64,000 bases of DNA from Opitutus sp. Its GTDB lineage: Bacteria > Verrucomicrobiota > Verrucomicrobiia > Opitutales > Opitutaceae. Location: NCBI GenBank assembly GCA_025361365.1, contig JANYAM010000199.1, positions 1 through 64,000 of the forward strand, given 5' to 3'. The first letter of the stretch is position 1; every line of letters starts with the position of its first letter. Position numbers and translations under genes: made by a program. Shown one piece after another: positions 4,989-50,075 of this stretch. The notes under the pieces were generated by a model, which worked only from the letters and a program-made list of their open reading frames with translations, was not told the DNA's origin and ran no database searches.

Positions 4989-5073
4989 CCGGGAAAACTA
5001 AAACTAAGAGCCTGGCTTGCAATATATTGCACTTGCCGGTCCAGACCCTCTTCTGCGGGCGCGCCTCAGCAAC

Positions 5074-15577: not shown

Positions 15578-15618
15578 GTGGGGCGGTGCCGCGGGTCCGC
15601 CGGATTCTGCATTCGATA

Positions 15619-15634
15619 TGCCAGCGTCAGGCCA
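15619..15634 (-). promoter_or_regulatory. Predicted sigma-54 promoter of the ADOP4-3-2-ankyrin-ADOP1 unit
   Basis: Minus strand TGGCCTGACGCTGGCA; GG-N10-GC. Predicted TSS ~15608, ATG 15577. Confidence 0.65.
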
Positions 15635-15705: not shown

Positions 15706-15732
15706 GAAATTTCGCCGTCCCGAAAGCGGGAC
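15706..15732. promoter_or_regulatory. Predicted enhancer (UAS) site
   Basis: GAAA-N8-TCCC-gaaagc-GGGA; perfect core palindrome GTCCCG-AAAG-CGGGAC at 15717-15732, about 92 bp upstream of the -24 GG. Confidence 0.65.
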
Positions 15733-17992: not shown

Positions 17993-18479
17993 AGATGCCG
18001 TCCTTTCCGTAATAAGTGATATAGTTTCGGGTCAGCCTGTGCCCGTCGTAGGCCTTCCAGGTGACGGTGAAAGTGATCTTGATCATGCCCGTGTGCACGT
18101 CGGTCGCGGTGCGCGTCAAAGTCATCCGGCTGCCGACATCACTCGCCGAATAATAACTCGAGTCGATGGTGATTTGAGTCGCGACCGTCGAATAGGAGCT
18201 GACCCCGCTATGTCCCGTGCCGGCAATAGTGCCGTCGCCCCAAGTGGTCAGCCGGACTTTCTCAAATTCGCTCTGCAGGATCTGCGAGGCGTAGCTGAGG
18301 CAGCGGGCCGTATCCAGACTGGCGAAGCCACGTTGGAGCACGACAATCGAAGTGGAGATGACCATGGCCATGATCGCGGCGGCGGAAGCCACCTCGATGA
18401 TGGTGAACGCGGCGAGGCGCCGTCGCGGGGAGCCGGCGGCCGCGCTCGCGGTTGTGGAAAAACGTGAGAAGGGTTTCAC
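17973..18479 (-). CDS. PilV-like prepilin-type protein
   Basis: RRRLAAFTIIEVASAAAIMAMVISTSIVVLQRGF. Confidence 0.8.
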   Translation of the reverse strand: MKPFSRFSTTASAAAGSPRRRLAAFTIIEVASAAAIMAMVISTSIVVLQRGFASLDTARCLSYASQILQSEFEKVRLTTWGDGTIAGTGHSGVSSYSTVATQITIDSSYYSASDVGSRMTLTRTATDVHTGMIKITFTVTWKAYDGHRLTRNYITYYGKDGIYDFIAL

Positions 18480-18560
18480 GTTCCCACTCTAGCGGAACGG
18501 CATGAAACCGGTAAGAGGCCTTAGCCTCCGAATTATGGCCCTGCCGTCTAGGGCCGAATG

Positions 18561-19241
18561 TCACTTGGCCGCGCGGCTCGTCGTATAAAGCACGGCGGCT
18601 TGGGATCGCCGGCTGATTTTCAGCTTCTCGAAGATATTGCTGAGATAATTTTTCACAGTTTTGTCACTGAGTCCCATTTGCTCGGCGATCTCCTTGTTCG
18701 TCTTGCCCTCCGCCACCAGCGCGAGCACCCGCCGCTCTTGGGCGGAGAGGCTGCCGAGCTTGTCCGTCTCGGTGGGCGGGTTGGAGCCCCCGCGCACCAA
18801 ATTGAGAACGTAGTTGGTCACGACCGGACCGAGGATGAATTTTCCCGCCGCCACATCCAGGATGGCCTGGCTGAGTGCTTCGGCATTGATCTCCTTAAGC
18901 AGGTAGCCGTGGGCGCCACTGCTCATGGCTTCGTAAACCAGGTTGTCGTCGATCACGGAGGTCAGAATCAGGACCTTCGTGTCGGGCTGGCCGGTCAGGA
19001 TTTTTCGGCACGCCTCCAGCCCCGAACCGTCGGGAAGGCGGATATCCATCAGGACGACGTCGGGTTCGAGTCGCTTCGCTTCGACGACGGCGCTGTTGGC
19101 CGAACTGGCCTCGCCGACGATGCGCAGCAGCGGGGTGGTGTTGCGGGAGTGGGCGTCCAGCAGCGTGCGGAGGCCGATGCGGACCAGTTCGCTGTCGTCC
19201 ACGATCAGGAGGCTGATGGTTTTTTGGAGGGAGGCGGGCAT
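18561..19241 (-). CDS. NarL/LuxR-family response regulator
   Basis: ISLLIVDDSELVRIGLRTLLDAH...DVVLMDIRLPDGSG...KVLILTS; HTH LSAQERRVLALVAEGKTNKEIAEQMGLSDKTVKNYLSNIFEKL. Confidence 0.93.
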   Translation of the reverse strand: MPASLQKTISLLIVDDSELVRIGLRTLLDAHSRNTTPLLRIVGEASSANSAVVEAKRLEPDVVLMDIRLPDGSGLEACRKILTGQPDTKVLILTSVIDDNLVYEAMSSGAHGYLLKEINAEALSQAILDVAAGKFILGPVVTNYVLNLVRGGSNPPTETDKLGSLSAQERRVLALVAEGKTNKEIAEQMGLSDKTVKNYLSNIFEKLKISRRSQAAVLYTTSRAAK

Positions 19242-19282
19242 GGGGAAGGGCGTTGGGGGAGGGAGGAAAGTGAAGCAAGGAG

Positions 19283-20659
19283 CTACCAGCCGGAAAAGAC
19301 ATTCTGCCAACGGGCCCGCTCCTCAGCCGAAGTGAGTTCCCGCCAGCGGCTGAGACCGAAGGGAGTGTTGTCACCGAAATTAGCGAGCGACTCGTCATAA
19401 TGGAAGTTGGCGTTGCCGGTGAAGGTGACCGTGCGGCCGACCACGGCCCCCATGATGTCCCCGTTGCCGTTGATCTTCACATCGGCGTTGGGGCCGTAGA
19501 TGACGGCTTTCAGGGCGCCATTTCCTGCGACTTGGATGCTCTGCCCGGCGGCGCTGGTGCTGGTGCCCCAGAGTTGGCAAGTGCCCGGCCGGATGTTGCC
19601 GTTGCCGAGGCCGTTGCCCGCGAGCAGACAGTCGCCTTCGACATACACCGTCAGGCTGGAGCCGACCGGTACAATGATCGCGGCGTTACCAGTGACAGAA
19701 AGAGCGCTGCCGGTGGTGGCCGTGAGCACCAGCGTGACATCCCCCAGGACAGTGAGGGTCTTGCTGCCATTAAGCGCGATGCTGGGGCAGCGCCACTTGG
19801 TGGCCTGCCCGAGGGTGCCCAGGGTAGCCCCCACCGCGGCAATCGGTGTGCCGTCGACGGGGGCGGTGATCACCGGAAGATTGGCGACGAAGTCGGTGGA
19901 GACCCGCGCCGGGTCGACCTGCACCCCGGCGGGTGTGTTGGCGCCGCGGACGGAACCGTTCGGGCCCACCTCGGGGACCGGCCCGGCGGTGGCGACAGAG
20001 CCCCAGACGGCAGCTTGGTTGACGAGCACCGAGCCGCTCTGCAAGGACAGGCTGGCGACGCTGCCGCCGTCATGTCGGACAGCGGCGCTGTAGTCCACGG
20101 ATGGCGTGGCTGGGTCGTTGTCGGGATCAGAGTTCCAGCTATCCACCGAGGTGTTCAGACCGGAGAAGCGGATGTTGTCCTTCGCGACGATGCCGCTGGC
20201 GAAATAGGAACGGCGCGAGAGCGTGACCGAAAGCATCTTGGTGGTCGGAGGGGTGCCGGGAGACTCCACGACGGCCATGGCCACGACGGTCGGCTTGTCG
20301 GCGCCGGCGGGGCTGATGTTGTCGACGTAGACCTTGATCATGCCCGTGGTGTTGCCGCCGAAGTCGAAGCCGGTGAACTTGCGCCAGGCCGCGGCATTCT
20401 GGACCGACCAACCAGTCCAGGCCGCGGCGTTGTGCGCGTTGGCCTGGTTGAACGACCACACGGCCTCCTCGGCCCCGGCCTCCGCGAGATGGAACGAGGA
20501 AGCCTGCTGGTAGCTCTGGCGCGCAAGGCGCGCGTTGCTCAGGTTCAGCGTCAAGTAGCTGCCGAGCGCGAGGGCGATGAGGGCCGTGATGAGCAGCGCC
20601 ACGATCAGCACGGCACCGCGCGGCCGCCGGGGCAAGGATTGATGACGGCGGGCGTGCAT
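19283..20659 (-). CDS. PilX-like pilus-assembly/pseudopilin protein (first minor-pilin set)
   Basis: [60 protein letters not shown]-terminal NANFHYDESL. Confidence 0.78.
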   Translation of the reverse strand: MHARRHQSLPRRPRGAVLIVALLITALIALALGSYLTLNLSNARLARQSYQQASSFHLAEAGAEEAVWSFNQANAHNAAAWTGWSVQNAAAWRKFTGFDFGGNTTGMIKVYVDNISPAGADKPTVVAMAVVESPGTPPTTKMLSVTLSRRSYFASGIVAKDNIRFSGLNTSVDSWNSDPDNDPATPSVDYSAAVRHDGGSVASLSLQSGSVLVNQAAVWGSVATAGPVPEVGPNGSVRGANTPAGVQVDPARVSTDFVANLPVITAPVDGTPIAAVGATLGTLGQATKWRCPSIALNGSKTLTVLGDVTLVLTATTGSALSVTGNAAIIVPVGSSLTVYVEGDCLLAGNGLGNGNIRPGTCQLWGTSTSAAGQSIQVAGNGALKAVIYGPNADVKINGNGDIMGAVVGRTVTFTGNANFHYDESLANFGDNTPFGLSRWRELTSAEERARWQNVFSGW

Positions 20660-21294
20660 CAGTTGGCGACCCTTTTGTTGCGGAGCATGTAGCGGGCGGA
20701 GATGGCCGAGTTGCTGGCACCGACGGTCGCGACATTGGTGCGCGTAGCGCGCAGGGTGAGCTGCAGCAGCTTGGTCTCGCTGTCGTTGCTGGCCGTGTTG
20801 TCACTCACGCCTGGCTGCTCGAGCTTGTAACGCTTGAAGGCGAACTCCGGCGCCACGCTGCGGATCAGCACGGTGCGGGGTTGGCCGGCGTCGCCGGCGA
20901 GACGGTAAAAGCTCCCGCAAGTGTTGCTCGCGGCGTCGCTGTCGTAGGCATAGGTCACCGGACTGCCGCTGACCGTGAGGGTGATGCTCTGCGCGCTGTT
21001 CCAGTGCACCTCCGTCGCATTGCGGGTGTCACGGGCAAACGTATCCATTCCGCGCCGCACCTCCGCCTCCATTTCGCTATAACCGCTCGAGCGGAAGCTG
21101 GTGCGGGCCAGGAACAGGAATGAGCTCAACACCGCCGCAAGCACCAACGTGCTCAGGGTCGCGGCGATCAGCACCTCGACGAGGGTAAAGCCTTTGCCCG
21201 GGCGGCCGCCGAAGGACGGCGCGTCCTGGACAAACACCGGGGCGGCAGCAGCCGGCAACGGTGCCAGATTAGTGCGTGGTGTAAAAGTAGTCAT
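20659..21294 (-). CDS. PilW-like prepilin-type protein
   Basis: [52 protein letters not shown]. Confidence 0.83.
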   Translation of the reverse strand: MTTFTPRTNLAPLPAAAAPVFVQDAPSFGGRPGKGFTLVEVLIAATLSTLVLAAVLSSFLFLARTSFRSSGYSEMEAEVRRGMDTFARDTRNATEVHWNSAQSITLTVSGSPVTYAYDSDAASNTCGSFYRLAGDAGQPRTVLIRSVAPEFAFKRYKLEQPGVSDNTASNDSETKLLQLTLRATRTNVATVGASNSAISARYMLRNKRVAN

Positions 21295-21691
21295 TGAGGC
21301 CGCTCTTGCCGTAGCGGGTGATGAGCCGGGCGGTATGTTCGCCGCCATCGTAGCCACGCCAGACCGCGGTTAGCGTGATCTGTTTCATGTCAGTCTTGAT
21401 ATCCGTGATCTCCCGGGCGCAGGTGAACCGGCTGCCGTCCGCCGCATCGGCTGTCGCCACCGTGCTGCCGCCCGTCTGCTGCAGGCTCGCGAGCTGGGTC
21501 CAGCCCAACAGGCGGATGCGCTCCATCTCGGATTGCATGATCTGGGAGGCGGCGGTGAGATTGCGGGCCGTGTCCAGCGCCTGCAGCCCGCGCTGGCTGG
21601 TGGTGATGGCGGTGACGATGCCGAAGACCAGCACGGTCGAGGCCACCATGACCTCGACGAGCGTGAAACCGGCCAAACGGGGTGGCTTCAT
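21269..21691 (-). CDS. PilV-like prepilin-type protein
   Basis: [44 protein letters not shown]; start overlaps the histidine kinase stop (ATGA). Confidence 0.85.
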   Translation of the reverse strand: MKPPRLAGFTLVEVMVASTVLVFGIVTAITTSQRGLQALDTARNLTAASQIMQSEMERIRLLGWTQLASLQQTGGSTVATADAADGSRFTCAREITDIKTDMKQITLTAVWRGYDGGEHTARLITRYGKSGLNDYFYTTH

Positions 21692-23304
21692 GGTGCGGCC
21701 TCCGTGAAGGGAAACGTGATGGTGACGGTGGCGCCGCGGGCCGGCGCTGAATTCAGGCGCAGCCGTCCGCCCATCTCCCGGGCCCGGGACGCGAGGTTGT
21801 GCAGCCCGCTGCCCTGACCGGTGACCAACGCGGGGTCGAAGCCCCGGCCGTCGTCGCGCACAGTCAGCACGCCTTCGCCCGCGGACTGGGTCAAAGTGAT
21901 GAGCACCTTCTTCGCTTCCCCGTGCCGCAGGGCATTGCTGATGCATTCGCGGGCAATCTGCAGGGCGTGGACTTCCTGTCCGATGGTCAACTGGCTGGCG
22001 GCGCGGGCATCGACCTTGTGGACAATGCGCACGGGCCACAGGGCCTGCATGGTGCGGGCCAGAGCGGCCAGCTCCTGAGCGAAGCCGTGGCGCTGCAGCT
22101 GTTCGGGCTCAAGCCCGCTGATAAACCCCCGCACCTCGCGGATCACGCCATTCAGGCTCTGCCGGCAGTGCGAGAGGCGCGTGCGCGCGGCGGCCTGGTC
22201 GCGCTCCATTTCCGACATCGCACTCTCCAGGCCCAGGCCCGCGGCATAGATGGACTGGATGACGCCGTCGTGCAGATCCCGGGCGAGTCGCGCGCGCAGC
22301 TCGAGTGAGCGCCGCACCAGCTCCTCGCTCCGGCGCAACGCTTCCTCGGCGCGCTTGCGCTCTTCATTCTCCTGCTGCAGTGCCTGGCGTTGCGCGAAGG
22401 AGTGGGTGATGAGCTGCGCGACGCGGCCCAGCTCATTGTTCTCCTGCTGGAGGGAGGAGATCACGGAGGCATCCTCCTGCGCGAGACTCGTGCCGATCCG
22501 GGCCAGGGGACGCAGCACCCACTGGCGGACGCCCAGCCAGACCGTCGCAATCACCAGCAGTCCGAACAACAGCAGCACGCGGACCGCGAGCGTGTCCGCA
22601 TCGATAGCCTCGGCGAATTTGGGGTCGGGCAGGGTGGTCTGTAACTGGCGAAGGATGCGGCCCTGCGGGTCCCGCAGTGGCAGCAGCAGATGGGCCGGGT
22701 TTGCCGGCCCCCCTGCTGGCACCAGCTCCACGCGCATTTCCGACAGCCGGCTCAGGGTTGCCAGAAAGCGCGGACTCCACCAGCGGGAGACCAGCAGCCA
22801 GCCGCGGGGACTTCCGCCCGGGTGCGCCGCTCCAATAGGCTCGCACCACGTTTCAAGCAGTCCGTCGCGGCTTTCGGTGAAGAGATGCCGGGTCTGGCCG
22901 TTGCCTAGCGAAGCCAGGAGAGCGGGCGTCGCCGGCAGCGGCAGCGGCGGTCCCGGGTGTTGCTGGGCCGAATAGATGAGTTCGCCTTTTTCCGTCAGCA
23001 CCCACAACGCGTGGGCATCGTAATTGACCAGATTCTGCTTGAGGGTGTCATCCGCCCAGGCCGGATCGCGTCGCTCCAGGAATGCCTCCATCTCGGGCCA
23101 CTCGCTGAAGTCACGGACGAAGCGCTCGAGCGGCTGGTTGGCCAGGCTGATCCACTGCTGGAGGGATTGCTGGCTGGTCCGCACCGCTTCCTGCCGCAGT
23201 TCGTCGATCCGGGACTGCTCTTTTTGACGCAGGTATTGCAGCACCCCAAGAAAGGTGACCAGCAATAGACCCAGCAATAGGGTCATTCGGACTTTGATGC
23301 TCAT
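21688..23304 (-). CDS. NarX-type sensor histidine kinase (HisKA_3) with CHASE4-like extracytoplasmic domain
   Basis: ARLARDLHDGVIQSIYAAGLGLE H-box; HATPase DDGRGFDP...GSGLHNLASRAREMGGRL; periplasmic RFVRDFSEWPEMEAFLERRDPAWADDTLKQNLVNYDAHALWVLTEKGELIYS. Confidence 0.88.
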   Translation of the reverse strand: MSIKVRMTLLLGLLLVTFLGVLQYLRQKEQSRIDELRQEAVRTSQQSLQQWISLANQPLERFVRDFSEWPEMEAFLERRDPAWADDTLKQNLVNYDAHALWVLTEKGELIYSAQQHPGPPLPLPATPALLASLGNGQTRHLFTESRDGLLETWCEPIGAAHPGGSPRGWLLVSRWWSPRFLATLSRLSEMRVELVPAGGPANPAHLLLPLRDPQGRILRQLQTTLPDPKFAEAIDADTLAVRVLLLFGLLVIATVWLGVRQWVLRPLARIGTSLAQEDASVISSLQQENNELGRVAQLITHSFAQRQALQQENEERKRAEEALRRSEELVRRSLELRARLARDLHDGVIQSIYAAGLGLESAMSEMERDQAAARTRLSHCRQSLNGVIREVRGFISGLEPEQLQRHGFAQELAALARTMQALWPVRIVHKVDARAASQLTIGQEVHALQIARECISNALRHGEAKKVLITLTQSAGEGVLTVRDDGRGFDPALVTGQGSGLHNLASRAREMGGRLRLNSAPARGATVTITFPFTEAAP

Positions 23305-27343: not shown

Positions 27344-29764
27344 TCAATCCGTGCGCAGCGCGATGATCGGGTCGATCCGCGCGGCCCGCAGCGAGGGCAA
27401 CAGGCAGGCGAAAGCGGCGACCACGGCGAAGAGCACGGTGACGCCGCCGAAAACGAGCGGGTCGAGCGGCTCGATCTGATAAAGCAGCGACGCCAGCAGG
27501 CGCGACCCGGCGGCCGACGCCCCGAGGCCGATGACCAGGCCGAGGGCGACCAGCTTCATGCCTTGGCTGAGGACGAGTGAAACGACCTGTCCCTTCGCAG
27601 CCCCCAGCGCCATGCGGATGCCGATCTCGCTGGTGCGCTGCGTGACGGCATAGGCCAGCACGCTGTAGAGGCCGACGGCGGAGAGCACGAGCGCCACGCC
27701 GGCAAAGATACCCGTGAGCCAGGCCACGATTTTCTGGAAGCCGAAGGAGGTCTGCACGGTGTTGTCCAGCGTGCTGAAGAAGGAAATAGCGATGGTATTG
27801 TCCACCGCCGCCACGGCCGAGCGCATGAGCCCCTGGAGGGCGGCCGGGTCGCCATCGGTGGAAGCGAGCAGGGCGAGGCCGGGCCGGCCGAATTGGCGAA
27901 GCGGATAATAAAACGAATCGGGTGGCACGGCGTTGAGGCCGTTGGATTTTACGTCGCCGACGATGCCGACAATCTCAAGCTTGATGTCGGCGTTGGCGCC
28001 GCGAAGGAGGACCTTGCCGATGGCCGATTCATTCGGAAACAGGTGCTTGGCGAAGGTCTCGCTGACGACGATCACCGTCGGCACGCCTTCCCGGTCGAGC
28101 GGCGTGAAGAGCCGGCCTTCCTTCAGCGGGATGTGCAACATGGCGAAATAGTCCTCGGTCACGACGTTGAGGTTGGCCACCGGGCGTTGCGCGGTGGGCG
28201 GGATGGGCTGGCCCTGCACCGCGTAGATGGCCCGCGGGCTGAAGCCGGAGAGCGGCAGACCGAGCGAGGCCCCGGCGAGCTTCACCTGCGGGTAAGTGCG
28301 AAGCTTCTCGCTCACCCGGTAGACAAAATCCGCCTGTTGGGCGGCGGTGGCGTAGCGTCCGCCCGGCAGGCTGACGAAGGCACTGGCGATGCCCTTGCTC
28401 TGGAAACCCGGTGAGGTGGACGTCAGCTTGATGAAGCTGGCGAGGAGCAGACCGGAGCCGATGAGCAGCATGACGGAGAGCGCGACCTCGGCGACAATGA
28501 GGAAACCCCGGAAGCGCACGCCCCGCGCCCCGGACGAGCCACGGGCGGAGTCCTTGAGCACCTCGGAAAGTTTCACCCGGGAAGCCGCCAGTGCCGGCAC
28601 GAGGCCGATGGTGAGACAGGCCAGCACCGACAGCCCGGCCGTGAAAGCGAGCGTCAAGCTATCGAGCGGGAAAGTCGTATTGGGCGGCAGCTGACTCGCC
28701 AGGAAATTCTCCAGCCCGGCGAGTGCCCACACGGCAAAGAGCACGCCGAGCCCGGCCGCAATGAGGGAGAAGAGCGCCGTCTCGGTGAGGAACTGGCGGA
28801 TTAACTGTCCGCGCGTGGCGCCCATGGAGAGGCGGATCGCGATCTCCTTGTGGCGCGCAGTGAGGCGGCTGAGGAAAAGGTTGGAGACATTGGCGCACGC
28901 GATGAGCAGGACAAAGGCGACGGCGATGAGCAGTGTATAGAACGTCGCGCGCACCGGCCCGACCTGCTCCTCGATCCAACTGCGGAGTTCGTTGTTGTTG
29001 GTCGTGTCGAGGTGGCCGGGAAAGGCGTCCTTGTAGTGCTGCGAGATGGTCTTCACCTCGGCGGCGGCCTGCTCAAACGTGACGCCCGGCTTGAGCCGCG
29101 CGGTGATCTGCAGGAAGCCCGCGCCGCCCTGGATCTGTTCGCGCGTGAGGCCCGGCGGCTCGAGCGGGTAGGGCACGACAAGCTGCGTGCCGGCGATGGG
29201 CGCGGGCAGGGTTTCCGGCAGGATGCCAATGACGGTATGGCCGATGCCGTTGAGCATAACCGTCTCGCCGATAATGCTGTCGCGCTGGCCGAAATGGGTC
29301 TTCCAGATCGCATAGCTGAGGAGCGTCACCGGCGCGCCGCCGGGCTTGTCCTCGTCGGCGGTGAAGTTGCGGCCGCGCGTGAGTTTCAGGCCCAGCGTGG
29401 GCACCCAGCCGGCCGTGACGTTGAGGCTGGTGAGCTGTTCGGGCTCCGCATCGGGGCGGGTGAGAATGTGCGAGTTGAAGCCCGAGGCGGCGAAGCCGCT
29501 GAACGACTGTTGCGAGTCGCGGAACAATTCGTATTTCGGGACCGACATGATTGGCGCCACGACGTTGCGGTCGGGATTGTTGGTCCAGATGCGCACGAGC
29601 CGTCCGGCGTCGGGCAGGTCGATCGGATGGAGGACGAGCTTGTTGAAAATGCTGAACAGGGCGGTGTTCGCGCCGATGGCGACGGCGATGGTGAGCACGG
29701 CGACCGCGGTGAAGCCCGGCGACTTGAGCAGGGCGCGGCAGGCGAACTTGAGGTTCGGAAACAT
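27344..29764 (-). CDS. ADOP-type ABC permease, copy 5
   Basis: 806 aa; MFPNLKFACRALLKSPGFTAVAVLTIAVAIGANTALFSIFNK ... LPSLRAARIDPIIALRTD. Confidence 0.93.
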   Translation of the reverse strand: MFPNLKFACRALLKSPGFTAVAVLTIAVAIGANTALFSIFNKLVLHPIDLPDAGRLVRIWTNNPDRNVVAPIMSVPKYELFRDSQQSFSGFAASGFNSHILTRPDAEPEQLTSLNVTAGWVPTLGLKLTRGRNFTADEDKPGGAPVTLLSYAIWKTHFGQRDSIIGETVMLNGIGHTVIGILPETLPAPIAGTQLVVPYPLEPPGLTREQIQGGAGFLQITARLKPGVTFEQAAAEVKTISQHYKDAFPGHLDTTNNNELRSWIEEQVGPVRATFYTLLIAVAFVLLIACANVSNLFLSRLTARHKEIAIRLSMGATRGQLIRQFLTETALFSLIAAGLGVLFAVWALAGLENFLASQLPPNTTFPLDSLTLAFTAGLSVLACLTIGLVPALAASRVKLSEVLKDSARGSSGARGVRFRGFLIVAEVALSVMLLIGSGLLLASFIKLTSTSPGFQSKGIASAFVSLPGGRYATAAQQADFVYRVSEKLRTYPQVKLAGASLGLPLSGFSPRAIYAVQGQPIPPTAQRPVANLNVVTEDYFAMLHIPLKEGRLFTPLDREGVPTVIVVSETFAKHLFPNESAIGKVLLRGANADIKLEIVGIVGDVKSNGLNAVPPDSFYYPLRQFGRPGLALLASTDGDPAALQGLMRSAVAAVDNTIAISFFSTLDNTVQTSFGFQKIVAWLTGIFAGVALVLSAVGLYSVLAYAVTQRTSEIGIRMALGAAKGQVVSLVLSQGMKLVALGLVIGLGASAAGSRLLASLLYQIEPLDPLVFGGVTVLFAVVAAFACLLPSLRAARIDPIIALRTD

Positions 29765-29771: not shown

Positions 29772-32285
29772 TTATTCCGCGCGCAGTGCGATCATCGGGT
29801 CAACCCGGGTGGCGCGGCGGGCGGGGACGAGGATGGCGATCAGAGAGACCGCTGCGACCAGCAGGACGACGGCGGCATATGGCAGCGGGTCGAGCGGATC
29901 GGTCTGGAACAGGAAGTTGGTGAGGGGGCCGCTGAAGCCCCAGGCAATGCCCACGGTGGCCAGGATGCCGAGCAACATGCCCAGGCCGAGTTGCCAGGCG
30001 CCCTGCCCGAGGACCATGCGGAGGATGCGCTGCGCGTCGGCACCGAGCGCCATGCGGACACCGAATTCCTGACTGCGCTGGTTGACGGAGAAGGACATCA
30101 CACCGTAGAGGCCGACCGAGGCCAGGACGATGGCGATCACGCCAAAGGTCATGAACATCACCGCGGTGAGCCGAAGCTGCGACAGGAACGAGTCCATCGC
30201 GTCCTTCGGCGTGCCGACAAAGTAGAGCGGCAGGTTCGGGTCGACCTTCTTGACCACATCCTGCACCGCCAGCGCGAGCGCTTCCGGCCGCTGGCCGCCG
30301 TGCGGACGGATGAGGGCGGTGCCGAACTGCTGAGCCTGCGGGGTGGGGGCGACCGGCCCGAACGCGGTGGCAAAGTAGGGCACGTAGAATCCAGTGCCGT
30401 CGGACTTGTTGTTAAATGGTCCGGCCATGCGCACATCGGTGACGACGCCAACCACCTGGCGCCACGGCCCCGGCTGGGTGCCGTTCTGGTTGACCGTACG
30501 GAAGCGACGGCCCAAGGCCTGCCCGCCGAAGTGCTTCTTCGCGAAGGCGGCGTTGACCACCGCAACCGGCATCTTCTGGTCACTGTCCTCGTCGGTGAGG
30601 TAGCGGCCCTCGATAATCTTCTGGCCCAGCACCTCGTTGTAGCCCGCGGTGACGTTCTCGAACTCCGACTGGGTGCGGTCGCTGTCCTGCTTGTAATCCT
30701 TGCCTTCGATTTCAACCGGGCCGTTGCCGGAGAAAACCATGCGGAAGCGGTTGGTGAGCGCGACTGCTTCGAACTGCGGCGAAGCTCGGAGTTCGCGGAT
30801 CAGGCGTTCGTAGAAAAGCTGGCGGCGCGCCGAGTCCGGGTAGTCGCCCTCCATCAGGCCCATGCGGGCACCCAAGACTCCCTTGGTGTCATACCCGTAG
30901 TCGAGGGTCTGCTGCTTTATGATCGAGCGGACCATGACGACGGCGGACACGAGCAGGAGGCAGGTGATGAGGATCTGGAAGACGACGAGGCCCCGCGTGA
31001 TGACGGCCACGGCGCGGCCGGTGTTGCCACGTCCGCCCTCCTTGAGGGCATCGATCGCGCTGGCGCGGGACGACATCCAAGCCGGCACGAAGCCGGAGAC
31101 GACCGCCGAGAACATCGCCGCGACCACGACGACGGAGAGGACCATCACGTCGATATCGAAGGTCATCCAAGAAGGAATTCGCGTGTTCTGATCGCCGGTA
31201 TGGACGTAGGCGTTGAGATAATCCGTGGTCCAGAAGGCGATGCCGATGCCCAGCGCCGCGCCGATGGCCGCGATCAGGAGGCTCTCGGTCAGCATCTGCC
31301 GGATCAGGCGGATGCGCGTGGCGCCGAGCGAGGAGCGGATGGCGAGTTCCTTCGCGCGCAGCGAGGCGCGGGCGAACTGCATGTTCATGACATTGATGCA
31401 GGCGATGAGCAGGACGCCGCCGCAGAGGCCAAGCATGGTATAGAGCAGGCCGTTGAGGTTGCCGCCGGTGAATGCCGCGATGAGCGGGCGGACGTAGCCC
31501 TTGGTGAACTGCTTGTTCGTATCCGGGTAGGCCTCGGCGAAGCCCTTGGCGATGGCGGAAAGGTCGGTCTCGGCCTGCTGGGAACTGACGTCGGGCTTGA
31601 GGCGCGCGATGACGGAAATGAAATTGATGCCGCGATCGTTGCGCGGCTTGACCGGAAACTCGGCGTTGACGGGAATCCATAGTTCCTCGTTGGACGGGAA
31701 TTGGAACTTCGGCGGCATGACACCGATGATAGTCCCCGCGCGGCCATTGACGCGCACCGCCTTGCCGATGACCCCGGGGTCGCTGCCAAACTTGCCGCGC
31801 CAGAGCGCGTCGCTGAGGATGACGGCCTTGTCGACGCCCGCGCGGTCCTCCTCTGCGAGGAAATCACGGCCGAGCACCGGCGCGACGCCGAGGGCGCGGA
31901 AGAAATCCCATGTGACATACCCGCCCTGCAAGCGGTCGGGCTGGCCGTTCCAGGTGAGGTTGACCGTCGAGCCGTTGAGGTAACCGACAAATTCCGAGAA
32001 GGACTTCTGCTGGGCGCGGACATCGGCGAAGTCCGCCGTCGTCAGGCGGGAGTTGAAGTTGGTTGGCTGAAAATTAGCCGGATCGGCCAACTGGACGTCG
32101 ACGAGCCGGTCGGCGTCGCGGAACTTGAACCCGCGCAAGAGCACGCCATTCACGACGGCATACTGGGTGGTGACGGCGCCGATGCCGACGGCCAGCACGA
32201 AGACGGCGAGCGCGCAGAATGATTTTTCCTTGATGAGCACGCGGAAGCCGACGCGCAGGTCCTGGAGGAAGGTTTCGAAGATCAT
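29772..32285 (-). CDS. ADOP-type ABC permease, copy 6
   Basis: 837 aa; MIFETFLQDLRVGFRVLIKEKSFCALAVFVLAVGIGAVTTQYAVVNGVLL ... [18 protein letters not shown]. Confidence 0.92.
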   Translation of the reverse strand: MIFETFLQDLRVGFRVLIKEKSFCALAVFVLAVGIGAVTTQYAVVNGVLLRGFKFRDADRLVDVQLADPANFQPTNFNSRLTTADFADVRAQQKSFSEFVGYLNGSTVNLTWNGQPDRLQGGYVTWDFFRALGVAPVLGRDFLAEEDRAGVDKAVILSDALWRGKFGSDPGVIGKAVRVNGRAGTIIGVMPPKFQFPSNEELWIPVNAEFPVKPRNDRGINFISVIARLKPDVSSQQAETDLSAIAKGFAEAYPDTNKQFTKGYVRPLIAAFTGGNLNGLLYTMLGLCGGVLLIACINVMNMQFARASLRAKELAIRSSLGATRIRLIRQMLTESLLIAAIGAALGIGIAFWTTDYLNAYVHTGDQNTRIPSWMTFDIDVMVLSVVVVAAMFSAVVSGFVPAWMSSRASAIDALKEGGRGNTGRAVAVITRGLVVFQILITCLLLVSAVVMVRSIIKQQTLDYGYDTKGVLGARMGLMEGDYPDSARRQLFYERLIRELRASPQFEAVALTNRFRMVFSGNGPVEIEGKDYKQDSDRTQSEFENVTAGYNEVLGQKIIEGRYLTDEDSDQKMPVAVVNAAFAKKHFGGQALGRRFRTVNQNGTQPGPWRQVVGVVTDVRMAGPFNNKSDGTGFYVPYFATAFGPVAPTPQAQQFGTALIRPHGGQRPEALALAVQDVVKKVDPNLPLYFVGTPKDAMDSFLSQLRLTAVMFMTFGVIAIVLASVGLYGVMSFSVNQRSQEFGVRMALGADAQRILRMVLGQGAWQLGLGMLLGILATVGIAWGFSGPLTNFLFQTDPLDPLPYAAVVLLVAAVSLIAILVPARRATRVDPMIALRAE

Positions 32286-32296: not shown

Positions 32297-33292
32297 TTAA
32301 TTGAGTTCGGCGCGGAGAATGATGACGTCCCGGGCGGGTGGGTGGGCGGCGGGGTTGCCGTAGAGTTCCCAGCCGGAGTTGCCGATGAAATCGAAGTGGC
32401 CATGGACGACCTGCCCGAGGCTCAGGTCGGTCATCGCCGGGTGGCCCTCGCGCAGCGTGGTGATACCGGTAAGCTTTCCAGTGGAATCAACGGCAAGGCG
32501 GAGGATGCGTTGGGACTTGGTGCCGTTCTGCACCGCGACAAAGCCGCCGGGTGCGGCATACAGTCCGTCCAGTCCGCGGAGATTGGCGCCCGCGGGGGCC
32601 GGCAGCAGGACGCATTCACGCGTGGCCCGGTCAATGCGCCACAAGCCGTTGGCATAATCCGTGACGTAAACGAAATGCTCGTCCGGCCCGCCGGCGATGC
32701 CTTGCAGGGACCTGAAATCGGTCCGCTCCAGCCACTTTTCCAACCCGGTGCCGTTGGCGGCGAGTCGCCAGATCACCGGCGAGAGCGAGTCCGTGGCCAG
32801 CACATCGCCATCTGCCATGATCAGGAAATCTCCCAGCACGTGCGGTCGGCCATCGGCCGGCAACGGATAGGTCGCGCGCAGCTTGCGGGTGCCCAGATCG
32901 TAGGCGGCAAGAAATCCCCGGCCCCGGTCCGCCTGTGTGAAGCCGATCATCTCCGGCACGGCAGAGGTGCTGGCCCAGAGGGTTCTGCCATCCGCCGAGA
33001 ATTTCAGGGCGAATACTCCCGGCAGGGAGTCGGAGTCCGCGGAAAATTTTTTCACGACGGCATATCCTCCGCTGACGTCGCGATACCAGATGCAGCGATT
33101 GCGGACATCGCTGAAGAAGGCCTCATGCGTAGTGGGATGGAGCGCGAGGCCCTCTATGATCCCATCCATGCCGGTGATGGCCCAGGCGGTCTCGTCGCGG
33201 GTGGTGTTGGTGACCGGCGGAGCAGCCTTGAGCGCCACGCAAAAAAAACAGAAAACGGCGACCGCGAGAGTGAGCAATCCGCCTGTGGCCAT
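32297..33292 (-). CDS. Secreted beta-propeller (SMP-30/gluconolactonase-like) protein
   Basis: Signal peptide MATGGLLTLAVAVFCFFCVALKAAPP; IIEGLALHPTTHEAFFSDVRN..., LQGIAGGPDEHFVYVTDYANGLWRID blades. Start moved from 33391 because the predicted promoter overlaps that ATG. Confidence 0.65.
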   Translation of the reverse strand: MATGGLLTLAVAVFCFFCVALKAAPPVTNTTRDETAWAITGMDGIIEGLALHPTTHEAFFSDVRNRCIWYRDVSGGYAVVKKFSADSDSLPGVFALKFSADGRTLWASTSAVPEMIGFTQADRGRGFLAAYDLGTRKLRATYPLPADGRPHVLGDFLIMADGDVLATDSLSPVIWRLAANGTGLEKWLERTDFRSLQGIAGGPDEHFVYVTDYANGLWRIDRATRECVLLPAPAGANLRGLDGLYAAPGGFVAVQNGTKSQRILRLAVDSTGKLTGITTLREGHPAMTDLSLGQVVHGHFDFIGNSGWELYGNPAAHPPARDVIILRAELN

Positions 33293-33381
33293 GCGGACTT
33301 GGGGCGTGCCGTTTTCAGGGTGAGGCGAAGAGGAAATCAGCCAGTTGTATTCGGTGCCGAACATGTGGGGAGTGCGCTCGC

Positions 33382-33399
33382 TTGCATGCATGATGCCAA
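33382..33399 (-). promoter_or_regulatory. Predicted sigma-54 promoter of the propeller-ADOP6-ADOP5-TPR unit
   Basis: Minus strand TTGGCATCATGCATGCAA; GG-N10-GC. Predicted TSS ~33372. Confidence 0.65.
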
Positions 33400-33482: not shown

Positions 33483-33509
33483 GAAATTCGGTCGTCCCGA
33501 ATGTGGGAT
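33483..33509. promoter_or_regulatory. Predicted enhancer (UAS) site
   Basis: GAAA-N8-TCCC-gaatgt-GGGA; core GTCCCGAATGTGGGAT 33494-33509, about 105 bp upstream of the -24 GG. Confidence 0.65.
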
Positions 33510-33556: not shown

Positions 33557-34342
33557 TTACTTTTCCTTGATCGAGATGCCGCCGTTGACGGTCTCGAGCG
33601 AGATGTCGGGACCGCCGCTGCCAATCTGGCCCGTGAGCGAATGGCGGTGAATCTTGCCGAGGGTCACGGCCTGATCGATGCTGACGCCGCCGTTAACCGA
33701 GTCGGCGTCGATGCGGGCGCCGGCGCCTTTGGGCAGAACGACGCTGGCACGGCCATTGACGGAATCCAGTTTCACCTTCTGGACACCGTCGAGCGAAGCG
33801 AACTCGGCACTGAGACTGCCATTGACGGATTCGAGTCGCGCGTCGGCGGCGAGCCCGGTGGCGGTGATGCGGCCGTTGACCGTCTCGAGTTCGACGGAGC
33901 CGCGCACGCCGGCCACGGTAATGTCGGAGTTGACGGAGTCGATCTTGTCAAGCCGGGCGCCAGCCGGCACCATGAGGCGATAGCGGACGGAGCCGGTGCT
34001 GCTACCGTGCCCAAAGGAGAGAAATCCCAAGTGCGCCTTCGGAAACTGGGTTTTGATGGTCAGCTTTGAGGTGGACCGGCCGTTCACATTCCAATTGGAG
34101 CTGCTGATCAACAGCTTTATCTGCTGCAACTCCTCATCGTTCTTCGCCTGCTTCTCGGCTTCGAGCGCGACTTCGGACCTGTCCCATGCCTTGATGGTGA
34201 TGTCACCGTTAACGTTCTCGAGATGAATGATGCCTTCCGGTGCGAGGGGATAGGTCTGCTTGAAAGTTTCGGTGACGGTTCCGCGGGTGGTCGGAGCGAG
34301 GGCGATGAGCGTGGCGGAGAACAGGAGGGCGCTGGCTTTCAT
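33557..34342 (-). CDS. DUF4097-like secreted beta-helix protein
   Basis: Signal peptide; repeated xxVNGxI motifs (HLENVNGDITI, LETVNGRITATG, LESVNGSLSAEF, LDSVNGRASV, DSVNGGVSI, LETVNGGISI). Confidence 0.85.
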   Translation of the reverse strand: MKASALLFSATLIALAPTTRGTVTETFKQTYPLAPEGIIHLENVNGDITIKAWDRSEVALEAEKQAKNDEELQQIKLLISSSNWNVNGRSTSKLTIKTQFPKAHLGFLSFGHGSSTGSVRYRLMVPAGARLDKIDSVNSDITVAGVRGSVELETVNGRITATGLAADARLESVNGSLSAEFASLDGVQKVKLDSVNGRASVVLPKGAGARIDADSVNGGVSIDQAVTLGKIHRHSLTGQIGSGGPDISLETVNGGISIKEK

Positions 34343-44485: not shown

Positions 44486-45196
44486 TTAGTGTGCGGAGCC
44501 GGCCTCGACCTGTTCCTCGACGACGCGGCCGTCGAACACGTGGATGGTGCGCTCGGCATGGCGCGCGAAGCGCGTGTCGTGCGTGACCATGACGATGGTG
44601 GAACCGGCGCGATGCAGCGAGTGGAGCAGTTCCATCACGGCGTCACCGTTCTTCGAATCGAGGTTACCCGTGGGTTCGTCGGCGAGGAGCACGGCCGGGG
44701 AACCGGCCAGGGCGCGGGCGACCGCGACGCGCTGCTGTTGACCGCCGGAGAGCTGGGAGGGCAGGTGCTTGGCGCGGTGGCCCATGCCGACTTTCTCGAG
44801 GGCCTCGGTCACGCGCGTTTTGCGCTCGCTGGCGGGCATGCCGCGGTAGGTGAGGGGCAGCTCGACATTCTCATAGACCGTGAGGTCGCCGATGAGATTG
44901 AACGACTGGAAAATGAAACCGATCTCGCGGTTGCGGATGCGGGCGCGCTCGGGGAGCGTCAGGCCCTGGACCGGGCGGCCATTGAGGACGTAGGTGCCGT
45001 CGGTCGGCGTGTCGAGCAGGCCGAGGATCGAGAGCAGGGTGGACTTGCCGCAACCGGACGGGCCGGCGATGGAGACATACTCGCCCTTGCGGATGTCCAT
45101 GTGGATGCCGGACAGGGCGTGCGTTTCCACTTCGTCGGTCAGGAAGACCTTGGTCACGCCGTCGAGTTTGATCAGGGAGGGATTTTCGGTGGTCAT
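44486..45196 (-). CDS. ABC transporter ATP-binding protein (MacB/LolD type)
   Basis: Walker [40 protein letters not shown]. Confidence 0.95.
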   Translation of the reverse strand: MTTENPSLIKLDGVTKVFLTDEVETHALSGIHMDIRKGEYVSIAGPSGCGKSTLLSILGLLDTPTDGTYVLNGRPVQGLTLPERARIRNREIGFIFQSFNLIGDLTVYENVELPLTYRGMPASERKTRVTEALEKVGMGHRAKHLPSQLSGGQQQRVAVARALAGSPAVLLADEPTGNLDSKNGDAVMELLHSLHRAGSTIVMVTHDTRFARHAERTIHVFDGRVVEEQVEAGSAH

Positions 45197-45371: not shown

Positions 45372-46625
45372 TTAGTTCAGGCGGACGCGGTCGTTCGAGT
45401 CCCAGGGCGACATGTCGGACAGGATGACGCGATCGCCGGGCTGGAGGCCGCCGACGATCTCAATCGTGTTGACCGAACTGCGGCCGAGTTGGACCTGGGT
45501 GCGGACGGCGTCGTTGGTGCCCTCGACGAGTTTGAAGATGCCCACGGTGCTTTTCTCCTGGCCGAAGGCCGGGCGGCCGACAAAGACGACCTCATTCAGG
45601 CGCTCGAGCTCGATGGTGCCGTCGACCGAGAGGTCGGGGCGGGCGCCGCGGGGGAGTTCGTTGACGATGGTGACGTCGACCAGGACGGTGCCGTTCTGCA
45701 CGGCGGGATCGATCCGGGCGACCTTGCCCTCGACGATGCCGTTGCGGGTGTCGATCTGGGCCAGCTGGCCGATGGCGATGTCGCGGGCCTGGGTTTCGGC
45801 GATGCGGATCTCGGCTTTGAGTTTGGAGGGATCGGCCACACGGGCGATGTTGGAGCCCGGCTGCACTTGGGCGCCGACCTCGACGGGCAGGGCGGAGAGC
45901 ACGCCGGCCATGGGGGCGCGGACCTTGAGGGCGTCGAGTTCCTCGGCGCGCAGCTGGGCGAGTGAGCGCAGGCGCTCGACCTCGGCTTCCTGCACGGCGA
46001 GCTGGGGCTTGATGGAATCCTTGGCGAAGACGTAACGCTTCTGCTCGATCTCATTGCTCGTGGCGCCGTCGGCCGCAGTGGCCTGGGCGAGTTTGAGGTC
46101 GAGTTCCGAGACGAGGCCGTCACGGAAGAGCTGCTCCTGGACATCGGACCGCAGCTTGGTGGTTTCGAAGTTAGACTTGGCGCGCGCGGCGGAGGCCTCG
46201 GCGGCCAGCAGCTGGCTTTCGAGCTGCATGCGCTGGTTGGCGAGTTGGGCCTCGGCAGCAGCCAGTTGGGAGTTGGCGTTGGCGGCGGCGGAGACGACGT
46301 CGGGATTGCGTAATTCGAGGATCAGACTGCCGACCTCGACGATGGCGCCGGGGCGGAGGACGATCTTGTCCACCCGGCCCTGGGTGCGGGCGGAGATCCA
46401 GCGGATTTCCTCGGGCACCAGCGTGCCGAGGCCGCGGACCTGGCGGACCATCGGGCCGCGCTTGACGGTGTCGATCCACACCAAGTTGCGCTCTACGGTG
46501 GGGGCGGCGGGCTTCAGGCGCGAGAGTCCGACAGTGATGGCGATGAGGACGACCGCGGCGACGGATCCGTAGATGATGCGCTTCTTGCGTTTTTCCTTGG
46601 CGGCGTTGGGGCGGGCGATGTCCAT
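45372..46625 (-). CDS. HlyD/MacA-type periplasmic adaptor (efflux membrane fusion protein)
   Basis: MDIARPNAAKEKRKKRIIYGSVAAVVLIAITVGLSRLKPAAPTVERNLVWIDTVKRGPMVRQVRGLGTLVPEE; coiled coil; VRAPMAGVLSALPVEVGAQVQPGSNIARVADPSKLKAEIRIAE. Confidence 0.92.
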   Translation of the reverse strand: MDIARPNAAKEKRKKRIIYGSVAAVVLIAITVGLSRLKPAAPTVERNLVWIDTVKRGPMVRQVRGLGTLVPEEIRWISARTQGRVDKIVLRPGAIVEVGSLILELRNPDVVSAAANANSQLAAAEAQLANQRMQLESQLLAAEASAARAKSNFETTKLRSDVQEQLFRDGLVSELDLKLAQATAADGATSNEIEQKRYVFAKDSIKPQLAVQEAEVERLRSLAQLRAEELDALKVRAPMAGVLSALPVEVGAQVQPGSNIARVADPSKLKAEIRIAETQARDIAIGQLAQIDTRNGIVEGKVARIDPAVQNGTVLVDVTIVNELPRGARPDLSVDGTIELERLNEVVFVGRPAFGQEKSTVGIFKLVEGTNDAVRTQVQLGRSSVNTIEIVGGLQPGDRVILSDMSPWDSNDRVRLN

Positions 46626-46649: not shown

Positions 46650-46667
46650 TTGCAACGTTCATGCCAA
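46650..46667 (-). promoter_or_regulatory. Predicted sigma-54 promoter of the adaptor-ATPase-ADOP10-9-8-7-DUF4097 unit
   Basis: Minus strand TTGGCATGAACGTTGCAA; near-perfect -24/-12 element. Predicted TSS ~46640, ATG 46625. Confidence 0.8.
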
Positions 46668-46751
46668 GCACGCAGATAGCTTTAAAGCGTTGCAGGCAAG
46701 GAGTAAGCAAGGCGAGGTCCAGTGCTCGTCCCCTCACATCAGAGCGAAGGC

Positions 46752-46778
46752 GGGATAGGAGTGTCCCGAAAATGGGAT
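46752..46778. promoter_or_regulatory. Predicted enhancer (UAS) site
   Basis: GGGA-taggagtg-TCCC-gaaaat-GGGA, about 106 bp upstream of the -24 GG. Confidence 0.7.
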
Positions 46779-46809: not shown

Positions 46810-48156
46810 CTACACCGGCAGGCGCAGGCGCGCGATGCAGCCGCTGGCGTCCTCGCGATTTTCCAGCGTGAGTGATCCACCGTGATTTTCCGCGATCTGG
46901 CGGCACAGCACGAGGCCGATGCCGGAGCCGGATGGTTTCGTGGTGAAGAACGGCACGAAAAGATTCTGGAGATTGGCAATGCCGGGGCCGTCGTCCTCGA
47001 CGAAAATTTCAACCTGACCGGAAGTCTTGCGCCAGCTGACGCGCACGCAGCAGGTGGCCGCGGCCGCTTGGCCCGCCTCGGGCGCGGCCTCGATGGCATT
47101 CTTGATGAGATTGATGAGCACCTGTTCGACCTGGGCCGCGTCCAGGGAAACCGTTAGTTCGGGCCCCTCGAGCAACTGCACCGCGGACCGGCCCTCGAGC
47201 GTCACGATGCGGCGCAACAACGGTGCAATCTCGCAGGCGAGTTTGTTGGGGGCGGGCAGCTTGGCCAGCCGCGCGTAGGATTGCATGAATTTGTTCAGGC
47301 CCTCGGCGCGCGTCTCGATGATTTCGAGGCCGCCCATCATGTCCTTCTCCCAGTCTTCGGCGCGCACCGGGCGCCGGAGCATGGTGGTGAGCGAGCCGGC
47401 GATGGATTTGATCGGCGCGAGCGAATTGTTCAGCTCGTGGCCGATGACGCGCACGAGGCGCTGCCAAGCCTTCAGTTCCTCCTCGCGAAGTGGCTGGCTG
47501 AGGTCGGCGATGACCACCAGCTTGTGCGGCAGGCCTCCCTCGCGAAAACTCGTGCGGCGCATTCCCCAGCGGCCGGCGCCGCCGGCAAAGGTGCGGCTCA
47601 GCACGCGCGTGCCTTCCCCGGCCAGGCAATCGGCGAGGTCGAGATCCGTCGCCTGACGGCCGAGGATGCGCTCGGCCGGCTGCGCGAGCAGTTCCTGCCC
47701 GGAGCGGTTGACGAGGCGGAGGGTCTCGTTGGCGTCGAAAGCGAAGATGGCGACATCGATTTCCTCCATGACCGTGCGGAGCAGGGCGGTCGCCTCGAGC
47801 GCGCCCAGGCGCTGCTCCTGGAGCACGCCGCCGAGCATGTTGATCTCGGCCAGCACATCGCCCAGCGGCTCGTCGCGGTTGGCGCCGCGGGCGCGAACGG
47901 AAAAATCTCCTTCGCGCAGCGCAGTAAGCAGGTTGGCCATCGTCTGCAACGGCCGCACCACCTGTTCGCGCACGGCCAGGGCAAAGCCCAGCCATGTCAG
48001 GCCAATGAACAGCGTGACCGTCCACTGGACCTTGGCCTCGTAGTCGCCGGCCCAGAGAATCCACATGACGGTCGTAACCGCCGGCAGGCCGCTGAGCAGC
48101 GTGTAGTAGAACACGCGTTGCTCGTGGGCGGTGCGGCGTGGCTTCGGGGGTGGCAT
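46810..48156 (-). CDS. NtrY/NtrB-like sensor histidine kinase
   Basis: Two N-terminal TMs, HAMP-like, PAS, H-box VIGHELNNSLAPIKSIAGSL, G-box GSGIGLVLCRQIAENHGGSL. Confidence 0.92.
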   Translation of the reverse strand: MPPPKPRRTAHEQRVFYYTLLSGLPAVTTVMWILWAGDYEAKVQWTVTLFIGLTWLGFALAVREQVVRPLQTMANLLTALREGDFSVRARGANRDEPLGDVLAEINMLGGVLQEQRLGALEATALLRTVMEEIDVAIFAFDANETLRLVNRSGQELLAQPAERILGRQATDLDLADCLAGEGTRVLSRTFAGGAGRWGMRRTSFREGGLPHKLVVIADLSQPLREEELKAWQRLVRVIGHELNNSLAPIKSIAGSLTTMLRRPVRAEDWEKDMMGGLEIIETRAEGLNKFMQSYARLAKLPAPNKLACEIAPLLRRIVTLEGRSAVQLLEGPELTVSLDAAQVEQVLINLIKNAIEAAPEAGQAAAATCCVRVSWRKTSGQVEIFVEDDGPGIANLQNLFVPFFTTKPSGSGIGLVLCRQIAENHGGSLTLENREDASGCIARLRLPV

Positions 48157-48198: not shown

Positions 48199-49566
48199 TC
48201 AGAGCCCGTAACGCTCGAGCCTCCGATAAAAAGCGCTCCGGCTGAGGCCGAGTTCCTCGGCGGCCTTGCGGGCGTTGCCGTCGCAGCGGGCGAGGGTCTT
48301 CTTGATCAGGAAGGACTCGACCTCCTCGAGGCTCATGTCCTCGAGGCGCGGTGCGGACTGGCCGGCGTTGAGGCCGAGGTCGGGGGCGCGGACGACCTTG
48401 CCCTGGGTCATGAGCACGCCGCGCTCGACGGAGTGGTCGAGCTCGCGGACGTTGCCGGGCCAGGAATAATTCTTCATCGCCTCGAGCGCGGCATCGTCGA
48501 AGCCCGTGATCGGCTTGCTGTAACGGGTGACGTGGGCCTTGAGGAAATGCTGGGCGAGCAGCGGGATATCCTCGCGGCGTTCGCGCAGCGGCGGCAGGTG
48601 GAGGTGGATCGTGTTGAGGCGGAAAAGCAGATCCTGGCGGAACTTGCCGGCGGCGACCTCGGCGTTGAGGTCGGAGTTGGTGGCGGAAATGAGGCGGACG
48701 TTGGTGCGGCTGGTGCGGGAGGAGCCGACGCGCTCAAACTCACCGGTCTCGAGGGTGCGCAGGATCTTCGCCTGCTGGCTCATCGGGATGTTGCCGATCT
48801 CGTCCATGAACAGCGTGCCGCTGTCGGCGAGCTCGAAGCGGCCGGCGCGGTCCACCTTGGCGTCGGTGAAGGCGCCGCGGACATGGCCGAAGAGTTCGCT
48901 CTCGAAGACGCCCTCGGGGAGGCCGCCCATGTTGACGGCGATGAAGGCCTTGCCGGCGCGGACGGACACGGCGTGCAGCGCCTGGGCGACGACGCCCTTG
49001 CCGGTGCCGTTCTCGCCGGTGATGAGCACATTGGCATCGGACGGGCCGACGCGGGAAATAATTTCCAGCACGGGCCGCATGGCGGCGGACTGGGCGATGA
49101 GGTTGGGGCCGCCCTTGCCGCGGAGAATCTGGTTTTCCTGCTCGAGGCGCCGGTAGGCGCGAACAGCACCGGCCAGCTCGATCTGGGTCTTGACGATGGT
49201 CAGCAGGCGGGGATTTTCCCAGGGCTTGGTAATGAAATCCTTGGCGCCGCGTCGCATGGCCTCGACGGCGATCTCGACACTGGCCCACGCGGTCATAACC
49301 ACGACGGGCAGGGTGACGTCGGCGGCCTGCAGCTTGGCGAGCAAGTCGAGGCCTTCCTGGCCGGACGTCGTGTCCCGCGCGTAATTCAGATCGATGATGG
49401 CGAGACTGAAATCGCGAGCCTCGACCGCCTTCAGCACCGCGGCGGGGGACTTGGCGGTCTCGATCTGGTAGCCCTCGGCCTTCAGGAGGAGGCGCAGGGC
49501 TTCGAGCACGTCGGGCTGGTCGTCCGCAACAAGGATGCGGTGGGGCGCGGGATCGTTGGCTGCCAT
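48199..49566 (-). CDS. NtrC-family sigma-54-dependent response regulator
   Basis: REC: HRILVADDQPDVLEALRLLL...LAIIDLNY; AAA+: GENGTGKGVVAQALH, FGHVRGAFTDAKVDRAGRFE; Fis-type HTH NARKAAEELGLSRSAFYRRLERYGL. Start set at MAANDPAPHRIL. Confidence 0.95.
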   Translation of the reverse strand: MAANDPAPHRILVADDQPDVLEALRLLLKAEGYQIETAKSPAAVLKAVEARDFSLAIIDLNYARDTTSGQEGLDLLAKLQAADVTLPVVVMTAWASVEIAVEAMRRGAKDFITKPWENPRLLTIVKTQIELAGAVRAYRRLEQENQILRGKGGPNLIAQSAAMRPVLEIISRVGPSDANVLITGENGTGKGVVAQALHAVSVRAGKAFIAVNMGGLPEGVFESELFGHVRGAFTDAKVDRAGRFELADSGTLFMDEIGNIPMSQQAKILRTLETGEFERVGSSRTSRTNVRLISATNSDLNAEVAAGKFRQDLLFRLNTIHLHLPPLRERREDIPLLAQHFLKAHVTRYSKPITGFDDAALEAMKNYSWPGNVRELDHSVERGVLMTQGKVVRAPDLGLNAGQSAPRLEDMSLEEVESFLIKKTLARCDGNARKAAEELGLSRSAFYRRLERYGL

Positions 49567-49640: not shown

Positions 49641-49904
49641 TCAGGCGGCCAGCCGATGGCGGGAGAATTCCGGACGCGCGTGGCCCGGAGTCGGACGCAC
49701 GATGGCGGCCGGGACACTCAGCGGCTTCAGGCGGCGCGAGTAATCGGAGAACGCAAAACGCAGGAGAGCGAGCGAGGCGGTGATGGCGAGAACGGCTTCG
49801 AGCGGGAAGCGCGCGGCGAACTCGGTGTTGGCGAGGCCGAAGGCGGCGAGACCGGCGGTGCCGGTGACAAGCGCGAGGGAAAGAAGGGAGCGGTAGTTTT
49901 TCAT
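49641..49904 (-). CDS. Small (87 aa) two-TM membrane protein of unknown function
   Basis: MKNYRSLLSLALVTGTAGLAAFGLANTEFAARFPLEAVLAITASLALLRFAFSDYSRRLKPLSVPAAIV...; short leader downstream of a predicted sigma-54 promoter. Confidence 0.7.
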   Translation of the reverse strand: MKNYRSLLSLALVTGTAGLAAFGLANTEFAARFPLEAVLAITASLALLRFAFSDYSRRLKPLSVPAAIVRPTPGHARPEFSRHRLAA

Positions 49905-49931: not shown

Positions 49932-49950
49932 TTTGCTCGCGCCGTGCCAA
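49932..49950 (-). promoter_or_regulatory. Predicted sigma-54 promoter of the small membrane protein (and possibly the NtrC/NtrY-like genes)
   Basis: Minus strand TTGGCACGGCGCGAGCAAA; GG-N10-GC. Predicted TSS ~49923, ATG 49904. Confidence 0.72.
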
Positions 49951-50048: not shown

Positions 50049-50075
50049 GGGAGCCACGATTCCCACGAATGGGAA
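50049..50075. promoter_or_regulatory. Predicted enhancer (UAS) site
   Basis: GGGA-gccacgat-TCCC-acgaat-GGGA, about 120 bp upstream of the -24 GG. Confidence 0.65.

Follow-up and report, generated by a model that had tools for sequence, protein, structure and literature searches.

The 64,000-nucleotide stretch of Opitutus DNA analyzed here (the window) contains many ADOP-family duplicated permeases, a TolC-family protein, HlyD/MacA-like proteins, MacB-type ATPases and a MacB permease, all in one cluster. Five promoters in the window share a short sequence array, which an earlier note described as an enhancer whose palindromic core is preceded at fixed spacing by a weaker half-site. What is this array, how is it built, and which protein would bind it?

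Five sites upstream of sigma-54 promoters

The pattern GRRA-N8-TCCC-N6-GGGA has exactly five matches on the plus strand of the window, at 5074, 15706, 33483, 46752 and 50049, as compared to a chance expectation of 0.04 (shuffle mean); none of 100 shuffles reached five. The claim that all five promoters carry the tripartite pattern is therefore correct. The bare palindrome TCCC-N6-GGGA adds one window match, at 21776 and within a gene. Pattern searches over the 3.56-Mb genome returned seven tripartite matches, five of them in the window, and none for the reversed control. The palindrome with TGGCA at promoter distance occurred eight times genome-wide (control 0), with the third arm present in 7 of the 8.

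All five sites precede minus-strand genes and read TCCC-N6-GGGA-N8-TYYC on that strand. For this reason the GRRA element is promoter-proximal, rather than upstream of the core as previously claimed. The genes concerned are a TolC-like gene, two ADOP operons, an HlyD-ABC operon and a regulator operon, and the features given below all lie on the minus strand. At the HlyD promoter, the tripartite enhancer (46752-46777) comprises operator A, TCCCATTTTCGGGA (46764-46777), an N8 spacer and arm B1, TCCC (46752-46755). This arm belongs to operator B, a decayed second palindrome, TCCCGCCTTCGCTC (46742-46755), that is kept in orthologs. Between enhancer and promoter lies an IHF-like site, CAACGCTTTA (46683-46692), followed by the -24/-12 element TGGCATGAACGTTGC (46652-46666), the gene for an HlyD/MacA-like membrane-fusion protein (45372-46625, start inferred from promoter position) and, downstream, a MacB/LolD-type ABC ATPase (44486-45196).

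The regulator operon has its tripartite enhancer at 50049-50074, with operator B extending to 50039, and its -24/-12 element, TGGCACGGCGCGAGC, at 49935-49949. Its first gene is a small membrane-type ORF, MKNYRSLLSL.. (49641-49904), followed by an NtrC-family response regulator (48199-49566), the proposed binder of the sites, and a partner histidine kinase with PAS and HATPase domains and two apparent, closely spaced N-terminal transmembrane segments (46810-48156). The outer-membrane efflux protein of the OEP/TolC family (3438-4949) is preceded by an enhancer at 5074-5099 (operator B extending to 5064), an IHF-like site, CAGGCTCTTA (5005-5014), and a promoter, TGGCATGAGGGTTGC (4974-4988). The two remaining enhancers are of the TTTC class. 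One, at 15706-15731 with the promoter TGGCATATCGAATGC (15609-15623), precedes an ADOP-family duplicated permease (13181-15577, start M29 inferred from the promoter). The other, at 33483-33508 with the promoter TGGCATCATGCATGC (33384-33398), precedes an operon whose first gene (32297-33364) had no Pfam match and is followed by ADOP permeases at 29772-32285 and 27344-29764. Seven ADOP proteins tested against TIGR03434 scored 725-1036, the curated cut-off being 622.

All five promoters have the -24/-12 element TGGCAY-N5-NTGC with a fixed GG-N10-GC. At site 5, in the regulator operon, the imperfect -12 reads AGC rather than TGC; orthologs are often perfect. The genome encodes a single rpoN (one PF04552 match, 199 bits). 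Distances from the first T of the site to the sigma-54 promoter are 108, 110, 111, 111 and 125 bp. The earlier view of an enhancer that is more than a palindrome is supported.

The region between enhancer and promoter contains an A/T-rich stretch and, at a fixed place -27/-26 from the T of the -24 element, the sequence CAR-N4-TTR. At least five of its six positions matched at this location in 31 of 47 promoters, while shuffles gave at most five such promoters at any one offset. The IHF consensus, WATCARNNNNTTR (PMC7962754), has CAR-N4-TTR at its core; its WAT part is weak here. We call the site IHF-like because the sole DNABII protein resembles IHF subunits but reaches no cut-off: its gene is the only one of that family in the genome, and it scores closer to IHF than to HU models yet below every cut-off.

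Several further features were observed among these genes. At 15744-21357 the ADOP arrays are interspersed with pilin-like genes (N-methylation motif, DUF7305/PilX-like), and a histidine kinase with CHASE4 and HisKA_3 domains lies inside the transporter array at 21688-23304. A DUF4097 'toastrack' protein is found within the array at 33557-34342; this domain is tied to envelope-stress systems in other bacteria. The two tripartite sites outside the window (G000:C197:5003 and G000:C254:9544; L009 and L010) precede small secreted or membrane-type proteins (MKKNSLLSL.., MKSKTILL..) that are conserved in same-genus genomes and are possible accessory sensors of the regulon.

A probable double operator with rigid spacing

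We compared the array across a sample of 150 genomes of the same family. Matches to the palindrome plus TGGCA showed a sharp spacing peak. TYYC at offset 22 was present in 51 of 77 sites at promoter spacing (match length 111-119) versus 0 of 46 outside both spacing classes. There was no other independent TYYC offset in these genomes, with offsets 20-21 representing the same runs in a shifted frame. The 22-bp offset is thus as rigid as had been proposed. When loci were fetched without reference to the arm, it was found in 26 of 28 having a full -24/-12 element versus 4 of 32 lacking one.

The earlier note had pointed to orthologous promoters as the place to see whether conservation stops at the core. 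Among HlyD promoters picked by gene orthology alone, the core was intact in 21/21 and the third arm was TCCC in 21/21. Regulator promoters picked in the same way had core and third arm in 34/39; in the other 5 of the 39 ortholog genomes the regulator promoter was not found. Conservation among orthologs thus extends past the core to the third arm, and the outcome that the note had named as refuting its view did not occur. Family-wide, core-to-promoter distances cluster at 110-114 and at 122-125 bp, two classes separated by roughly one turn of the helix. Within the genus of the window, the promoters of the regulator and of small proteins fall in the longer class. In one genome with a divergent regulator (55% identity), a site upstream of HlyD (G012:C7, L221) has the core and a TTTC arm at offset 23, which suggests co-evolution of the spacing.

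A count matrix was built from sites selected by spacing alone. Columns 1-14 read TCCCATTTTYGGGA; columns 23-33 read TYYC-R-N4-C-G and repeat operator columns 1-11. Across 196 sites, the inner dyad of the core, R5/Y10, is present in 97%, and the corresponding R27/Y32 in 93% versus 27% for a control column pair. The promoter-proximal arm of operator B then fades, from G33 (84%) through G34 (43%) and G35 (31%) to A36 (19%). These columns are best read as a second operator built to the same grammar 22 bp further along, of which the third arm is the outer arm and the promoter-proximal arm is the decayed one. On this reading, the enhancer would be two tandem operators 22 bp apart, and tandem dimers on the same face of the DNA, as envisaged originally, remain the best reading of their occupancy.

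Arm sequences vary with the target gene. The third arm is TCCC in 55/55 HlyD and regulator promoters (regulator 34/34), while the distal core arm is degenerate (TTTC/TTCC) in five regulator promoters with GGGA and the third arm intact; 'weaker' is therefore too simple a description of the third arm. Strictly two half-site classes had been proposed, and we reject this division given that at least four were seen (TCCC, TTTC, TTCC and TCTC). TCCC is nearly constant in HlyD and regulator promoters, as is TTTC in the 32297-type operon, and TTCC is frequent among ABC-first operons. Such a link between arm type and gene fits tuned affinity but falls short of proving it. A third operator upstream of the core was also considered and rejected, as nothing is conserved past the CG flank.

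Two other ways of dividing the array among dimers deserve consideration. A dimer might bind the palindrome only, with the third arm a lone half-site catching one subunit of a neighboring dimer and the second operator no dimer site at all. Retention of just one G in the proximal arm of operator B (G33 84%, A36 19%) fits this idea, but R27-N4-Y32 and G33 repeat the grammar of operator A at the frequencies given above, and in HlyD orthologs TCCCGSCTTCGC is conserved through both arms. We consider a lone half-site, which is how the earlier note saw the element, unlikely, and favor a second operator, TYYC-R-N4-Y-G, with the element as its outer arm. Alternatively, GGGA-N8-TCCC could be the dimer unit and the distal TCCC an accessory arm, as might be supposed from the five regulator promoters with a degenerate distal arm. 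However, dyad symmetry is absent from N8 (columns 15-22) and present in N6, and the N6-centered symmetry reaches outward as CG...CG. We rejected GGGA-N8-TCCC as the dimer unit for its lack of a dyad in N8, and regard this division as distinctly improbable.

Proposed assignment of the regulator

The response regulator at 48199-49566 has receiver, Sigma54_activat and Fis-type HTH domains (PF00072, PF00158 and PF02954). Its ortholog, at 77-100% identity, is present in 52 of the 150 family genomes. The tripartite pattern with a promoter occurs in 51/52 genomes having the ortholog versus 8/98 without it (Fisher p = 3e-30), and the reversed-pattern control gave one match across all 150 genomes. A paralogous activator of the sigma-54 type, also encoded in the window's genome, occurs in 137/150 and consequently does not discriminate site presence. 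In one genome of the same genus (G147), both the regulator and the tripartite site are absent and the paralog is retained. Where the regulator is divergent (52-66% identity), the exact tripartite site is mostly absent although the recognition helix is similar. Because the regulator gene comes along with those for the kinase and HlyD, co-occurrence fails to single out the regulator from its cluster. The regulator's own operon also bears the site. These patterns are strong but indirect evidence, and the binder is most likely this clustered sigma-54 activator. In another same-genus genome (G130:C14:79453-80373), the regulator ortholog is broken by a TAG stop and the target sites remain; the stop is either an assembly error or recent decay.

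Several more sigma-54 activators are encoded in the genome, and the sites might bind one of these, or a repressor, instead of the clustered response regulator. We judge this very improbable, as site presence tracks this regulator and not the near-universal paralog, and the regulator's own operon has a site. The G+C-rich genome could also raise the suspicion that the sites are chance occurrences, a compositional artifact or a mobile repeat. That reading is already refuted by the controls: shuffled and reversed patterns give counts near zero, and the arms agree between sites while the spacers differ.

In a scan of named genomes, nearly all records among the matches listed were Verrucomicrobiota (among them Opitutia, Spartobacteria/Chthoniobacterales and Verrucomicrobiales). 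Most of the few non-Verrucomicrobial matches listed look like chance and lack the system genes. The exception among the matches listed is two Spirochaetaceae with a different regulator (34-35% identity) and a sugar ABC transporter, whose arrays we take as convergent or distant. In these metagenome-assembled genomes (L103:1372-6170 and L162:1968-7485), a similar 22-bp array, GGGA-N8-TCCC-N6-GGGA-N8-TCCC, and a sigma-54 promoter precede a sugar-type ABC transporter. The adjoining histidine kinase carries an ABC-transporter ATPase domain at its N terminus (ABC_tran, PAS and HisKA; the complete copy also has HATPase). L103 has an NtrC-type regulator next to this fusion. Such a fusion may sense transport directly.

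Known systems and a proposed mechanism

NtrC-type promoters typically combine tandem palindromes, IHF and -24/-12 elements (PMC6296734, PMC7962754). Tandem operator duplication that helps oligomerization is described as frequent in these systems (PMC6296734), and IHF acts between enhancer and promoter (PMC6296734, PMC7962754). The present sites share with NtrC-type enhancers the tandem palindromic operators at about -100 to -140, the intervening IHF-like site and a receiver-AAA+-Fis HTH regulator beside its kinase. They differ in operator sequence (TCCCR-N4-YGGGA), in a consistently asymmetric second operator, in an unusually uniform enhancer-promoter distance, and in having MacAB/ADOP-type export genes as targets rather than nitrogen genes. 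The nearest described arrangement is the CbrB enhancer of Pseudomonas putida, with three subsites, 20-25 bp between centers, on the same helix face, an IHF site and a sigma-54 promoter (PMC6296734). However, CbrB is described as a monomer and its subsites (TGTTAC type) as non-palindromic and variably spaced (PMC6296734), whereas the arms here form palindromes at a fixed 22 bp, which places them outside the CbrB type.

A 2025 study predicted that sigma-54 controls COG0577 and COG1136 ABC transporters in Opitutia (PMC12316311). That set covers the same bacterial class and the same transporter families with predicted -24/-12 promoters, but in the parts of that source considered here promoters are treated by COG class, and no enhancer motif, regulator or site anatomy is named for these transporters. 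Our literature search found no described regulator of ADOP/MacB arrays in Opitutaceae. BceRS-BceAB-like systems pair intramembrane-sensing kinases with MacB/FtsX-type transporters. The kinase studied here similarly has two apparent transmembrane helices with a very short loop and lies beside MacB-type transporters, although its output is an NtrC-type sigma-54 activator and not an OmpR-type regulator. By analogy, sensing of antimicrobial peptides or envelope stress is possible, and the two N-terminal segments with their very short loop would suit a transporter-linked signal. The kind of system is thus already known, and the operator sequence, regulator assignment, asymmetric double operator and tight spacing appear new within the literature searched.

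Judging from the sites, their spacing and conservation, the promoters and the co-occurrence with the regulator, all of them read from sequence, we estimate at roughly 85% the probability that the five sites are enhancers of one autoregulated sigma-54 two-component regulon for MacAB/ADOP-type export, bound by the regulator at 48199-49566. As to which protein binds, its phosphorylation, the number of dimers, the protein that bends the DNA and the nature of the signal, we infer the following course. Some type of envelope or antimicrobial signal would be sensed by the kinase and regulator, and the kinase (46810-48156) would phosphorylate the response regulator. Phosphorylated dimers would then occupy the two tandem operators 22 bp apart: a strong distal one, TCCCR-N4-YGGGA, and an asymmetric promoter-proximal one, TYYCR-N4-YG. 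Placed on roughly one face of the DNA, the two dimers would nucleate an AAA+ oligomer and allow the ring to assemble. By bending the DNA, an IHF-like protein on the fixed CAR-N4-TTR would bring the oligomer into contact with sigma-54 RNA polymerase at -24/-12, and the export genes and regulator operon would be transcribed. The predicted targets, namely the regulator operon, HlyD-ABC operon, TolC-like gene and ADOP permease operons, would form a MacAB-TolC-like export/envelope-defense regulon.

More tentatively, the enhancer may be stereospecific, such that the register of the activator hexamer is set jointly by one and a half operators as an obligatory asymmetric unit, an IHF-like bend at a fixed place, and a promoter distance held to within a few bp (in two classes). 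We see this as possible, with the odds against it. If true, these enhancers would be rigid machines and not freely looping, distance-tolerant elements. The gene-linked arm variation over many genomes offers a natural data set for relating operator symmetry and helical phasing to activator assembly.

These results provide a testable, complete sigma-54 regulon, with sites, regulator, kinase, promoters, a likely bending protein and targets, in a group with almost no regulatory work. For the large ADOP/MacB transporter arrays found in Verrucomicrobiota, they point to a likely controller. Most likely, the regulon would switch on MacAB-like efflux-pump genes in soil and water Verrucomicrobiota.
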